From contig CAJQPE010000104.1 in NCBI GenBank assembly GCA_905480125.1, forward strand, positions 1 through 36,460: DNA of 36,460 bases, written 5' to 3'. The notes under the pieces were generated by a model. That model did no database searches. It had not been told where the DNA came from and saw only the letters and a list, made by a program, of their open reading frames with translations. The position numbers and the translations under genes were made by a program. The DNA is from an uncultured Flavobacteriales bacterium (GTDB lineage Bacteria > Bacteroidota > Bacteroidia > Flavobacteriales_G > NORP312). Positions 24,777-29,769 of the stretch are shown here, in pieces (the stretch's first letter is position 1; each line of letters opens with the position of its first letter).

Positions 24777-27410
24777 TTAACCAATACCTATTAACTGCTC
24801 TTCTAAAACCTTTATTTTAGCTTCGGCATCTGATAGCTTTTGGCGCTCAATAATTACAACCTGCTCAGGTGCTCCTTGAACAAATCGTTCATTGCTCAAT
24901 TTTTTAGTAACACCTAGTAAAAAGCCCTTTGTGCGCTCAAGTTCATCGACCAGCTTCTTCTTTTCGGCGGCAATATCAATCATTCCTTCTTCAATAGGAA
25001 TAAAATACTCATTTGTGTTTACGATGAATGAAAATGCTTTATCTACTTTCTCCTTAACGTAGTTCAATTCGCTAATATTACACATCTTTTTAATAACAAC
25101 ATCAAGTGATTTATCCAACGGTTTATTTTCTTTAATAGTTAACAGTAATGAATCTTTCTGTGGAATATTCTTACTTATTTTAAATGCTCGAATTTCCGAT
25201 ATAACTTTTGTTGACTGTTCAAAGCTTGCAAGCAGTTCCTTATTTTGTTTTTCTATAATTGGCCAAGAGTTTAGCATCACACATTCCTTTTCTCCTCTTT
25301 TTGCGATAAGAGACCAAAGCTCCTCAGTAATAAATGGCGTGAATGGATGAAGTAGGTGAAGTAACTTTTCAAAAATAACAATAGTTTCATCCAATGTTAC
25401 CTTATCTATTGGATTTTGATATGCAGGCTTAATCATTTCTAAATACCACGAACAAAAATCATCCCATACTAGCTTGTAAGTCGACATTAAAGCATCTGAT
25501 ATTCTGTATTTAGAATAATGATCATCAATAGTAATAAGACTCTCTGCAAGTTTAGCTTCAAACCATTGTATGGCAATTTTACTCGATTGTGGTTGTTCAA
25601 TTTTATCATGAACCTCCCAGTTTTGAATTAGTCTAAACGCATTCCAAATTTTATTGGTAAAGTTTCTTCCTTGCTCACATAGTTGCTCATCGAATGGCAA
25701 ATCATTTCCTGCCGGAGAGCAAAGTAGCAATCCAACTCTTGTTCCATCTGCACTATATTTTTCTAATAAATCTATTGGATCTGGAGAATTACCTAACGAT
25801 TTCGACATTTTTCTTCCTAATTTATCACGAACTAATCCAGTTAGATAAACATTATTAAATGGCTTTTCTCCTTTATATTCATAACCTGCCATAACCATTC
25901 TGGCTACCCAAAAGAACAAAATATCTGGCCCCGTTACTAAGTCGTTAGTTGGATAGTAGTAGTTGATGTCTTGCCCTTTTGGGTTTTTAAATCCATCGAA
26001 AACAGAAATCGGCCATAACCAAGATGAAAACCAAGTATCAAGAACATCTTCGTCCTGTCTTATTTCAGCTAGCGAAATTGACCTACCTGATTTGTCTTCT
26101 GCTAATTTTTGAGCTTCTTCTTTGTTTTTGGCAACAACAAAATCGTTCGCTCCAGAACCAAAATACCAGGCAGGGATTTGCTGTCCCCACCATAATTGGC
26201 GAGAAACGCACCAGTCCTTAACATTCTCCATCCAATACCGGTATGTGTTCTTAAATTTTGCAGGGTACAATTGAATAGTATCGTCCATTACATTTTCTAA
26301 AGCTGGTTTCGCCATTTTACTCATATCGCAAAACCACTGTAAAGAAAGTTTTGGTTCAATAACTGCATCGGTACGTTCAGAGTATCCCACCTTATTTATA
26401 AGGTCATCAACCTTAACTAAATAACCTTGTTCGTCTAATTCCTTTTCTATTTCTTTTCGAACATCAAACCTATCTTGACCAACAAACAGCTTAGCCTTTT
26501 CATTTAATGTACCATTCTCATTAAAAATATTAATAGTTTCGAGATTGTGTTTAATTCCTAATTTGTAATCATTTTCATCATGAGCAGGAGTTACTTTAAG
26601 TGCCCCTGTGCCAAATTCTATATCAACATATTCGTCAAAAATTACAGGAATAGATCTATTCACTAAAGGAACTATTGCGCGTTTGTCTTTCAAATGAGTA
26701 TATCTTTCATCATCAGGATGAACACAAATTGCGGTATCTCCCAAAATAGTTTCAGGTCGAGTCGTAGCAACGGTAAGCCATTCATCATCTGTTCCTTCAA
26801 TTATATATCGTACATGAAACAACTTTGAATTTACTTCTTTGTGAATTACTTCCTCATCGGAAAGTGCTGTTAAAGCCTTTGGGTCCCAATTAATCATTCT
26901 AACTCCGCGGTAAATTAACCCTTTATTAAACAAATCAATAAACACATCAATTACAGCTTCTGATAAGTCTTCTTCAAGTGTGAAACGTGTTCTATCCCAA
27001 TCGCAAGAAGCACCTAATTTCTTTAACTGTTCAAGTATAATTCCACCATGTTTTTCTTTCCACTCCCAGGCGTGTTTCATAAATTCTTCGCGAGTGAGGT
27101 CTTTCTTTTCGATGCCTTCTTCACTTAATTTATTCACAACTTTTGCTTCAGTCGCAATTGAAGCGTGGTCAGTACCTGGCACCCAACACACATTCTTTCC
27201 TAACAATCTCTGTCTTCTGCATAATACGTCTTGTATCGTATTATTGAGCATGTGCCCCATGTGAAGCATTCCAGTAACGTTGGGTGGAGGAATCACAATT
27301 GTATATGGTTCTCTTTCATCTGGTTCTGAATGAAACATTTTATTATCCATCCAGAATTTATACCACTTCGCCTCTGCTTCTTTTGAACTATATGATTTTG
27401 GAATATCCAT
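24777..27410 (-). CDS. valS: valine--tRNA ligase
   Basis: This enzyme charges tRNA-Val with valine using ATP. The 877 residues contain the HIGH-type motif in [13 protein letters not shown] (41-53), the editing domain (about 200-345, [12 protein letters not shown] and [16 protein letters not shown]), the tRNA-synthetase core up to KMSKS at 534-538, the anticodon-binding domain, and a C-terminal coiled-coil arm (about 815-877), as in bacterial ValRS. The ATG at 27410 is preceded 20 bases upstream by a TAAATTTG element and then by a 19-base inverted repeat. No leader peptide or T-box is seen. It is transcribed divergently from the DUF1573 genes. Confidence 0.98.
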
Positions 27411-27430
27411 TGTTATGTTGTTTGAGAATG

Positions 27431-27467
27431 CAAATTTACTAATTCAAGTCAATCATATAATGATTGA
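27431..27467 (-). promoter_or_regulatory. valS -7 element with upstream inverted repeat
   Basis: On the minus strand TAAATTTG (27438-27431) fits TAnnTTTG, 20 bases before the valS ATG. Starting 11 bases upstream is a perfect inverted repeat, TCAATCAT (27449-27456), spacer ATA, ATGATTGA (27460-27467). It covers the position where RNA polymerase would contact the -33 region, so it looks like an operator or an activator site. No regulator can be named. Confidence 0.35.
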
Positions 27468-27585
27468 ATTAGATAATGATTAATTGAGTTTTCAACTATT
27501 TATAGCAATTAATGTTAATATTGATTTAGCCATGGTGACGGTGTTAATGTTTTGTTAAAACCTAAGATTATTCTTAACATTTAAC

Positions 27586-27593
27586 TACATTTG
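27586..27593 (+). promoter_or_regulatory. -7 element TACATTTG before the first DUF1573 gene
   Basis: TACATTTG fits TAnnTTTG and lies 39 bases before the ATG at 27633. The nearest upstream TTTG (27551-27554) is 31 bases away, which is too far for the usual 17-23 base spacer. Confidence 0.35.
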
Positions 27594-27632
27594 TTTTGAA
27601 TAATTTTAGATATTAAACTATAAAAAAATACT

Positions 27633-28097
27633 ATGAAAAAATTAACATTATCATTCGGATTAATTCTTGCTTTCGTTTTAGGGTCATTCGCTCAAGAAGT
27701 TAGCGGATCTGCTCCAGCAGCAGGAGGAGCCAGCGTTGAATTTGAAAAAGATGTCCACGACTTTGGAAACATGAAGCAGCATGGTGATGCATCTACTGAG
27801 TTTAAATTTACAAATACAGGAGCTGCACCTCTAATTATTTCTAATGCTAAAGGATCTTGCGGATGTACTGTTCCGTCTTGGCCAAAAGAGCCTATTATGC
27901 CAGGTGAAACTTCTTCTATAAAAGTAAAGTACGATTCTAAAAGAGTTGGACCAATTAACAAGTCGGTTACTATTAGCTCTAATGCGGCTAACGAGCCTAC
28001 TAAAGTTATTCGAATTAAGGGAATGATTGAAGCTGCTCCTAAAGAAGAAACTATGCCTGTTAAAGAAGCGCCAGTTGGTGCACCAGTTGAGAAATAA
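27633..28097 (+). CDS. secreted DUF1573 protein
   Basis: This is 154 residues. The signal peptide is MKKLTLSFGLILAFVLGSFAQ. The single DUF1573 (ASH/MSP-like beta-sandwich) domain runs from about 35 to 133: VEFEKDVHDFGNM, FKFTNTGAAPLIIS, GSCGCTVPSWP, PGETSSIKVKYDSKRVGP, KSVTISSNA, IRIKGM. A Pro/Ala/Glu-rich tail follows. The Cys-Gly-Cys motif is characteristic of the family and may bind metal or form a disulfide. The location is probably periplasmic or outer surface; the role is unknown. A paralogue begins 5 bases after the stop, and a strong terminator lies inside that second gene's first codons, which suggests this one is the more abundant product. Confidence 0.93.
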   Translation: MKKLTLSFGLILAFVLGSFAQEVSGSAPAAGGASVEFEKDVHDFGNMKQHGDASTEFKFTNTGAAPLIISNAKGSCGCTVPSWPKEPIMPGETSSIKVKYDSKRVGPINKSVTISSNAANEPTKVIRIKGMIEAAPKEETMPVKEAPVGAPVEK

Positions 28098-28102
28098 ACT
28101 AC

Positions 28103-28507
28103 ATGGTTTTTCACGAAACTCAAAAGCTCCAGCGAATAATCGTTGGAGCTTTTTTTATACTCTCTAGTTTAATCTGTCATTCTCAAGCCCAAATGAAATT
28201 TGAACAAAAAACTCAAAACTTTAGTAAAGTAAAACCAGGACATGTTCTTGAATTTGACTATGCTTTCTCTAATTATGGAGACGAACCCTTAATAATCAAT
28301 AACATAGAAGTGTCTTGCTCCTGTACAAAATTTATATTTCCAAAACGACCGATAGCAACGAAAGAAAAAGACACTATACATGTCACTTTCGATACTAATC
28401 ATAAAATTGGTTATCAAGACAGAATTTTATTGGTTAATTCAAATGCCGAAAATTCCCCTACCAAAATTAGGTTTAAAGGGATGGTAGATAATAAATCTGA
28501 AAAATAA
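28103..28507 (+). CDS. second, tandem DUF1573 protein
   Basis: This is 134 residues with a signal peptide (IIVGAFFILSSLICHSQAQ) and one DUF1573 domain (about 31-130): MKFEQKTQNFSKV, FSNYGDEPLIINN, VSCSCTKFIFP, KIGYQDRILLVNSNAENSP, KIRFKGM. The family Cys-Gly-Cys motif is Cys-Ser-Cys here. It is clearly paralogous to the gene 5 bases upstream, most likely by an old tandem duplication. The ATG at 28103 is the only usable start that keeps the signal peptide. An intrinsic terminator (28122-28156) occupies its codons 7-18, so full transcripts require read-through or melting of the hairpin by a translating ribosome. The function is unknown. Confidence 0.88.
   Translation: MVFHETQKLQRIIVGAFFILSSLICHSQAQMKFEQKTQNFSKVKPGHVLEFDYAFSNYGDEPLIINNIEVSCSCTKFIFPKRPIATKEKDTIHVTFDTNHKIGYQDRILLVNSNAENSPTKIRFKGMVDNKSEK
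28122..28156 (+). terminator. intrinsic terminator inside the 5' coding region of the second DUF1573 gene
   Basis: The arm at 28122-28135 (AAAAGCTCCAGCGA) pairs with 28140-28153 (TCGTTGGAGCTTTT) over 14 bp with a single G-U wobble and a 4-base loop ATAA, followed by more T to 28156. By shape it is as good as any terminator in the window. It sits 25 bases after the stop of the first DUF1573 gene and 19 bases into the second. Confidence 0.85.
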
Positions 28508-28520
28508 TTTCTTCATTTTG

Positions 28521-28528
28521 TATATTCG
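28521..28528 (+). promoter_or_regulatory. -7-like element TATATTCG before the aminotransferase
   Basis: TATATTCG differs from TAnnTTTG at one base, is identical to the -7 element of the subtilase promoter, and lies 20 bases before the ATG at 28549. No TTG is seen at the -33 distance. Confidence 0.3.
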
Positions 28529-28548
28529 CACACCGAAATAATATCATT

Positions 28549-29769
28549 ATGCCATCAATATCTAAAAAAGGCTTTCAAATGCCCGAATCGCCAATAAGAA
28601 AATTAGTTCCTTATGCCGAGCAGGCAAAAAAAAATGGAAACCACGTTCATCATTTAAACATTGGTCAGCCAGATATTGAAACACCGCAAATTGCTATAGA
28701 TGCTATTAGAAACTTTAAAGACAATGTAGTGGAATATAGTCATTCTGCTGGTTTTGAATCTTATCGAAACAAGTTGCGCAATTACTACAAGGAAGTTGGC
28801 ATAAATGTAAATTCTTCTGATATTATTGTTACAACAGGAGGTTCAGAAGCACTTCTATTTGGATTTATGACATGCTTCAATGATGGAGATGAATTGATTA
28901 TTCCTGAACCATTTTATGCCAATTACAATGGATTCTCTATTGCGTCTAATCTTTCAGTTGTTCCAGTTACTGCTACAATAGATACAGGTTTTGCTCTTCC
29001 TCCGATCGAAGAATTCGAAAAAAAGATTACAAACAAAACCAAAGGCATTCTCATTTGCAATCCAGGAAACCCAACGGGATACTTATATTCAAAAAAAGAG
29101 TTAGAGACGCTTAGAGATATTGTGAAAAAGCATGATTTGTTCCTTTTTGCTGACGAAGTCTATCGTGAGTTCTGCTATGATGGCAAAGAACATTTCTCTG
29201 TAATGAATTTGGAAGGAATAGAGCAAAATGTAGTTATAATAGATTCTGTATCAAAACGCTACAGTATGTGCGGTGCAAGAATTGGAGCTGTAATAAGTAA
29301 AAATACAAAAGTAATGGAAACCATACTAAAGTTTGCTCAAGCAAGACTTAGCCCTCCTACATTTGGCCAAGTTGCAAGTGAAGCAGCTTTAGATACTCCA
29401 AAATCTTATTTTAACGGCGTAATTACTGAATACGCTAAACGAAGAAACACGCTAGTAGAAGGTCTTAACGAAATTGATGGAGTAATATGTCCGAAGCCAA
29501 GTGGTGCTTTTTATGTTATTGCATCTTTTCCTATTTCTAATACAGAAAAATTCTGCCAATGGATGTTAGAAGAGTTTAATTACAATGGTGAAACAGTAAT
29601 GATGGCACCGGCAAATGGTTTTTATTCTGACCCTAATAAAGGAAAGAATGAGGTAAGACTAGCATATGTGCTAAACTTAGAATCTCTTAAAAATGCAGTG
29701 CGGTGTTTAAAAGAAGGACTTAAAATCTATAAAGAAACAGTTGAAAATACTATTACTATTAATGTTTAG
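28549..29769 (+). CDS. PLP-dependent class I/II aminotransferase (aspartate aminotransferase-like)
   Basis: This is a cytosolic fold-type I aminotransferase of 406 residues. Visible are LNIGQPDIETP (36-46), TTGGSEALLFGF (95-106), ICNPGNPTGYLYS with Asn174 (169-181), FADEVYREF with Asp202 and Tyr205, and the PLP lysine Lys236 in DSVSKRYSMCGARIG (232-246). The C-terminal Arg that binds the substrate carboxylate should be in NEVRLAYVLN. The sequence resembles Bacteroidota proteins annotated as aspartate aminotransferases, but amino donor specificity cannot be fixed from sequence. Its 3' end overlaps the convergent cytochrome-like gene by 11 bases. Confidence 0.93.
   Translation: MPSISKKGFQMPESPIRKLVPYAEQAKKNGNHVHHLNIGQPDIETPQIAIDAIRNFKDNVVEYSHSAGFESYRNKLRNYYKEVGINVNSSDIIVTTGGSEALLFGFMTCFNDGDELIIPEPFYANYNGFSIASNLSVVPVTATIDTGFALPPIEEFEKKITNKTKGILICNPGNPTGYLYSKKELETLRDIVKKHDLFLFADEVYREFCYDGKEHFSVMNLEGIEQNVVIIDSVSKRYSMCGARIGAVISKNTKVMETILKFAQARLSPPTFGQVASEAALDTPKSYFNGVITEYAKRRNTLVEGLNEIDGVICPKPSGAFYVIASFPISNTEKFCQWMLEEFNYNGETVMMAPANGFYSDPNKGKNEVRLAYVLNLESLKNAVRCLKEGLKIYKETVENTITINV

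Follow-up and report, generated by a model that had tools for sequence, protein, structure and literature searches.

How can a gene be expressed when its own first codons appear to contain a transcription terminator? This question is raised by a tandem pair of DUF1573 genes in the window, that is, the whole stretch of 36,460 nt analyzed here, which is contig C104 of a 2.63-Mb draft genome. Gene 1 (27633–28097, plus strand) codes for a secreted and strongly conserved DUF1573 protein, and gene 2 (28103–28507, plus strand), separated from it by 5 nt, codes for a paralogue of 134 aa; both products score above the curated cut-off of the DUF1573 family (PF07610; 119 and 89.6 bits, respectively, vs. 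26.1). Within the genus, gene 2 is under purifying selection (dN/dS 0.15–0.36), which is stronger still on gene 1 (0.035–0.063), and because of this selection gene 2 is presumably made despite the terminator. The pair is flanked by the divergent valS gene for valyl-tRNA synthetase (24777–27410, minus strand; Pfam tRNA-synt_1 417 bits, Val_tRNA-synt_C 44 bits) and, downstream, by a class I/II aminotransferase gene (28549–29769, plus strand; Aminotran_1_2 180.6 bits). Both neighbors are found elsewhere, valS upstream of DUF1573 genes and the aminotransferase gene after gene 2, each in several other families. The complete order of divergent valS, DUF1573 gene(s), gene 2, and aminotransferase (24777–29769 in the window) is shared by several families of Bacteroidia, which hints at an ancient operon or a functional link that has gone unrecognized.

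A hairpin within signal-peptide codons

The predicted terminator hairpin (28122–28153, plus strand) is made of a 5' arm at 28122–28135 (AAAAGCTCCAGCGA), an ATAA loop at 28136–28139, and a 3' arm at 28140–28153 (TCGTTGGAGCTTTT), and it is accompanied by a U-tract of 7 T (28150–28156, plus strand) that is kept in both sampled relatives of the genus and doubles as the Phe-Phe codons of the signal peptide. It occupies codons 7–18 of gene 2, 24 nt after the stop codon of gene 1. The stem of 14 pairs with one G-U, the 4-base loop, the T-tract, and their position had all been described in an earlier note on this DNA and are confirmed by the sequence, but the high GC content that the note ascribed to the stem is only moderate (6 of the 14 pairs are G-C). 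The region combines the features of an intrinsic (Rho-independent) terminator: a stable stem containing G and C, a short loop, a U-tract directly after the stem and, both in the genus of the window and in the family f43, compensatory conservation of the structure. Alone, the hairpin folds at −20.2 kcal/mol, and the segment 28097–28170 folds at −22.7 kcal/mol, vs. −9.0 ± 2.3 in shuffled sequences (z = −5.85; none of 200 as good). A scan of 16.5 kb yielded 10 terminator-like sites vs. 9.4 by chance, and the gene 2 hairpin was the sole site with more than 8 pairs. A chance origin was rejected on the grounds of the shuffles and of the control junctions and synonymous recodings described below. A search for Rfam leaders and riboswitches returned none at the gathering score, and a known Rfam element was rejected as well, the two matches spanning the terminator being below threshold (26 of 55 and 21.6 of 80 bits).

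The position of the start codon is decisive for whether the hairpin is translated. Ahead of the hairpin, the sole in-frame start is the ATG at 28103, and the signal peptide read from it is normal-looking (28103–28192, plus strand; MVFHETQKLQRIIVGAFFILSSLICHSQAQ, with a hydrophobic stretch after K/R). Because no other start would yield a signal peptide, the hairpin is placed within translated codons. Alternatively, gene 2 might begin after the hairpin, at an unusual start codon, and the terminator would then be ordinary intergenic DNA, an arrangement that is seen in 17 of the 70 relatives surveyed below. For the window this is hardly credible, since a start at any ATG, GTG, or TTG past the stem would remove the signal peptide, both here and in the genus relative G002; moreover, the next in-frame ATG (28193) corresponds to position one of the mature domain, where both genus relatives have ATA, and in f43 the frame is kept across the hairpin. 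A later start of gene 2 was rejected for this lack of a usable codon after the stem.

Conservation, probable selection, and probable repeated origin

The genus was sampled in three species, namely those of the window, of L018 (genome G002), and of L019 (G001), the last two labelled Flavobacteriales and with a gene 2 identity to the window of 83 and 63%, respectively. Both relatives retain the gene pair, the ATG at +5, and the hairpin. In the inner stem, the G-U pair of the window is A-U in both of them and one A-U pair is C-G in L019, in which a T-A pair of the stem has also become T-G; the outermost A-T pairs are not all retained, one being lost in each relative. The end of the 5' arm, the loop, the 3' arm, and the U-tract together encode RIIVGAFF, which is identical in the window and L019 (eight of eight; RLIVGAFF in L018), although the window and L019 share only 15 of 30 residues of the signal peptide. 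An alignment of this kind had been proposed in the earlier note as a check of dual function, and it came out in favor of the proposal, with the stem kept by compensatory changes and the signal peptide retained.

Relatives of gene 2 were detected in 73 of 395 Bacteroidia genomes (E ≤ 1e-20), and loci were taken from most of these 73, together with 30 of genus g58 (family f43) and 6 of genus g32 (f17). The scored set consisted of 70 distinct gene-2 junctions with an upstream DUF1573 gene; one gene 2 query (g2d) was out of frame, which could lose assignments and not add them. A hairpin with U-tract was present at 59 of the 70 junctions at ≤ −10 kcal/mol and at 56 at ≤ −12 kcal/mol, counts that are not unbiased frequencies because the sample was chosen by similarity to gene 2 of the window. 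Among the controls, also at −12 kcal/mol, such sites were present at 10 of 82 gene 1–gene 1 junctions and downstream of gene 2 in 3 of 77 places, and long ORFs had 0.14 per kb. When the junctions were sorted by the starts that give gene 2 a signal peptide (embedded meaning that there is no usable later start), 39 terminators were embedded in gene 2 codons, 17 lay between the genes, and 3 were ambiguous, with 11 junctions lacking one; leaving out the additional g58 genomes (L129–L157), the figures are 25 embedded, 13 between, and 11 without (n = 49). The embedded junctions span ten families (f1, f3, f14, f17, f21, f26, f32, f39, f43, and f46; the f39 case is weak). Given the 11 pairs without terminator, the element is not essential to the operon. 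Pairs of precisely this kind, with both genes and no hairpin, had been named in the earlier note as evidence against its proposal; they do exist, although in other families only, and every sampled member of the genus of the window keeps the hairpin.

Several lines of evidence suggest that this double use of DNA has been selected. None of 400 synonymous recodings of the window peptide was as stable a terminator, which makes selection likely, and which also contradicts the claim that the signal peptide cannot be encoded without these bases, as the recodings encode the same peptide. In redraws of the same type (400 each), p ≤ 0.0025 was obtained in 29 of the 39 embedded cases, and the mean share of synonymous draws reaching −12 was 6%. 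In f43, 17 hairpins of near-equal length have 92% of cells paired, with changes on both sides in 7 of 14 pairs; 24 cells have changes on both sides vs. 8.2 in shuffles, and the covariation score is 0.388 vs. 0.210 when shuffled (0 of 500 as high) and 0.06–0.17 with slid partners. In the same family, the distance from the gene 1 stop to the gene 2 core takes values of 85, 91, 106, 112, 115, 124, and 111, and equals 1 mod 3 in 21 of 22 embedded cases (mixed in the 5 non-embedded ones); therefore, the region grows or shrinks by whole codons, as expected if the hairpin is translated. In two species of g58 (L153 and L154), the stem sequence itself has changed, with GAGCTCCCTCCGC...GCGGGGGGAGTTT replacing AAAATCCC...GGGATTTT, and the position class and the open frame have been kept. 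Finally, a gene 2 tree (105 columns, with many forks open) requires the embedded state to have changed no fewer than 10 times, with well-supported branches forcing 5 of these changes, which suggests that the arrangement has arisen several times. The contention that the sequence has two jobs is in this way supported by codon choice, compensatory changes, and recurrence in ten families.

On the other hand, the overlap could be neutral: the start of gene 2 may have crept over the 3' end of gene 1, or the hairpin may have slid in, within a compact genome, so that the hairpin would have no role in the level of gene 2, which would live on leaky readthrough. Among the matches listed, gene 1 orthologues of the same order in which gene 2 is missing are followed, a short distance past the stop, by a strong terminator, so that the element is best regarded as belonging to gene 1; this is in agreement with a neutral origin, as is the switching of the embedded state within one genus. 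Embedded terminators were also sought in 20 stretches plus the window (about 394 kb from the genome of the window and a few other Bacteroidia), a match being a terminator that falls inside the opening 120 nt of one gene and no more than 60 nt past the preceding stop. Of the 7 matches, 4 were gene 2 of this DUF1573 family and 3 were others, so that the overlap of terminator and gene is rare but not unique, and these three, among 166 sampled short-gap pairs, are again compatible with neutrality. However, embedding is far commoner at gene 2 (39 of 70) than at the remaining co-directional short-gap junctions (3 of about 162), and terminators are enriched specifically ahead of gene 2 (80 vs. 12% at other DUF1573 junctions), so that a purely neutral account is rather unlikely. 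As a separate observation, the genome of the window has in L167 (G000:C80) two other candidate embedded terminators at about 11288 (plus strand) and 13874 (minus strand), which sit in the first codons of the downstream genes, encoding a hydrophobic N-terminus in one and MPGDQKTYKKLKLLKFKLF... in the other.

Probable transcription of the pair and the possible role of the ribosome

A candidate −7 promoter box of gene 1 (TACATTTG; 27586–27593, plus strand) is the only exact match in 27301–28600 to TAnnTTTG, which we take to be the −7 box of Bacteroidota, and it is common to all three genus members at the same place. No exact TAnnTTTG was found in gene 1 or before gene 2 in these three members, and on this exact-box search a promoter of gene 2 inside gene 1 was rejected. 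One promoter upstream of gene 1 would then serve both genes and, with this promoter as the only one, gene 2 mRNA would be produced only by readthrough. The best explanation, in which we have moderate confidence, is that the hairpin is the intrinsic terminator of gene 1, overprinted by the start of gene 2, and that it works as a partial terminator lowering gene 2. Most polymerases would stop at the U-tract (28150–28156), giving gene 1 mRNA, and a minority would read on to give gene 2 mRNA, possibly together with the aminotransferase. Because the gene 2 start precedes the hairpin and all gene 2 mRNA passes through it, the hairpin would set the ratio of gene 1 to gene 2. The overlap probably serves to keep the second protein scarcer than the first, and the high gene 1 and low gene 2 product anticipated by the earlier note would fit the strong predicted terminator between the genes. 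That transcription ends here in the cell, the degree to which it does so, the sharing of one promoter, and the ribosome-dependent readthrough discussed below are all inferences from the sequence.

Stem-loops between operon genes can also stabilize 3' ends or serve as sites of RNase processing. A hairpin prolonging in this manner the life of gene 1 mRNA over that of gene 2 mRNA would likewise give more gene 1 than gene 2; nevertheless, a U-tract, which marks intrinsic termination, is needless for stabilization, and the enrichment described above is of hairpin plus U-tract, a run of U being part of the criterion of the scan, all of which renders this possibility very unlikely.

If the hairpin is a partial terminator, readthrough should increase whenever the polymerase is closely trailed by a ribosome that is completing gene 1, or that re-initiates 5 nt further on, and that covers the 5' arm of the hairpin. 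In E. coli, a terminator placed within ~100 bp of the start of a coding region is efficient, as the newly started ribosome trails RNA polymerase too far, and ribosomes finishing an upstream gene repress a terminator located less than about 27–30 nt past the stop; for tR2, sequence-dependent values of about 0.12 and 0.8 have been reported at 17–18 nt, with the maximum beyond about 27–30 nt (PMC4824070). The gap between the gene 1 stop and the hairpin is 24 nt in the window and 17 nt in most of f43, and under this distance rule the last ribosome of gene 1 is the likelier brake on termination. Ribosomes that complete gene 1 would therefore probably matter more for readthrough than those that initiate on gene 2, although the rule from E. 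coli may be inapplicable in Bacteroidota. Further points count against the partial terminator. Terminated transcripts on which gene 2 translation has started would lead to non-stop ribosomes, a cost, although cells are known from brfA to handle non-stop mRNAs by trans-translation (PMC6881298); and in the 17 of 70 junctions where the terminator precedes the gene 2 start, gene 2 could have its own promoter.

A different possibility, which is the model of the earlier note in a regulated form, is an attenuator in which initiation or elongation on the first codons of gene 2 responds to a signal (the rate of translation, the secretion load, or the level of an amino acid or nucleotide) and selects either termination or readthrough, with the signal-peptide codons acting as the leader peptide. 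In all 39 embedded cases the start codon is ahead of the hairpin, and in the 22 of 22 that belong to f43 it is situated at −14 to 0 from the gene 1 stop, overlapping or abutting it, which suggests re-initiation and coupled translation; the location of the terminator within translated codons, upstream of the body of gene 2, has a precedent in the pyrBI terminator inside its leader peptide (PMC4824070). Nonetheless, ribosomes in E. coli do not repress known terminators in the first 100 bp unless polymerase and ribosome are coupled by a pause site (PMC4824070), no Rfam regulator was found at threshold, and the terminator is wholly untranslated in 17 of the 70 relatives; a regulated attenuator is consequently considered unlikely. 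The same doubt extends to the broader proposal that across Bacteroidia the signal-peptide codons of gene 2 form an attenuator, the export peptide being also the leader that decides the transcription of its gene. If true, such an attenuator would have no separate leader peptide, would have arisen repeatedly, and might report the state of translation or secretion.

Comparison with known systems

The arrangement, in which signal-peptide codons overprint a predicted intrinsic terminator, appears to be conserved and recurrent, and it varies on attenuator and terminator systems that are already known. In the ampC attenuator of E. coli, a terminator between genes is relieved by ribosome binding without a long leader peptide, but it precedes the ampC start and is not inside the downstream coding region, as is the case here. 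In the orfE/rph–pyrE attenuator, a terminator immediately past the stop of the upstream gene is controlled by the ribosomes that complete that gene; this one is intergenic, whereas the DUF1573 hairpin overlaps the next gene. The pyrBI attenuator of E. coli is similar in having an intrinsic terminator in translated codons, and a ribosome on the pyrL codons can prevent the hairpin (PMC4824070). However, pyrL has no known function beyond that of a leader peptide, while these codons would specify the signal peptide of a real operon gene, and a UTP pause site and established regulation are features of pyrBI, regulation of gene 2 being hypothetical. Another example is brfA of B. subtilis, with an intrinsic terminator within the coding region that is removable by synonymous changes, but at the 3' end of the gene, so that a nearly full protein is made under tmRNA control; here the terminator is in the first 20 codons (PMC6881298). 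Like brfA, arfA of E. coli is made from non-stop mRNA. The tR2 series (Li et al., PMC4824070) resembles the present case in that terminators were placed 0–50 nt past a stop or in the first 100 bp, although in a synthetic construct and not in a natural, conserved arrangement. In the open-licence literature, no paper was found that links DUF1573 to a terminator, nor any that combines terminator, signal peptide, and attenuation.

The DUF1573 pair is a natural and apparently repeatedly evolved instance of one stretch of DNA that carries an RNA signal on top of a protein signal. A signal-peptide stretch may tolerate a terminator because the U-tract encodes phenylalanine, which fits the hydrophobic core. 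Genome annotation that moves starts past terminators, or that discards terminators inside genes, would miss such cases. The natural variants (embedded, intergenic, or absent, some of them in one genus) are suitable for tests of the coupling of transcription and translation in Bacteroidota. A further placement was observed in two families: in L020 (G010:C113) and L056 (G064:C122), the terminator is located further into gene 2, about +104/+105 nt past the upstream stop and at matching codons of the mature domain (KVKAGEMLSFDF, KAGEILGFAY), and the signal peptide is encoded without a hairpin.
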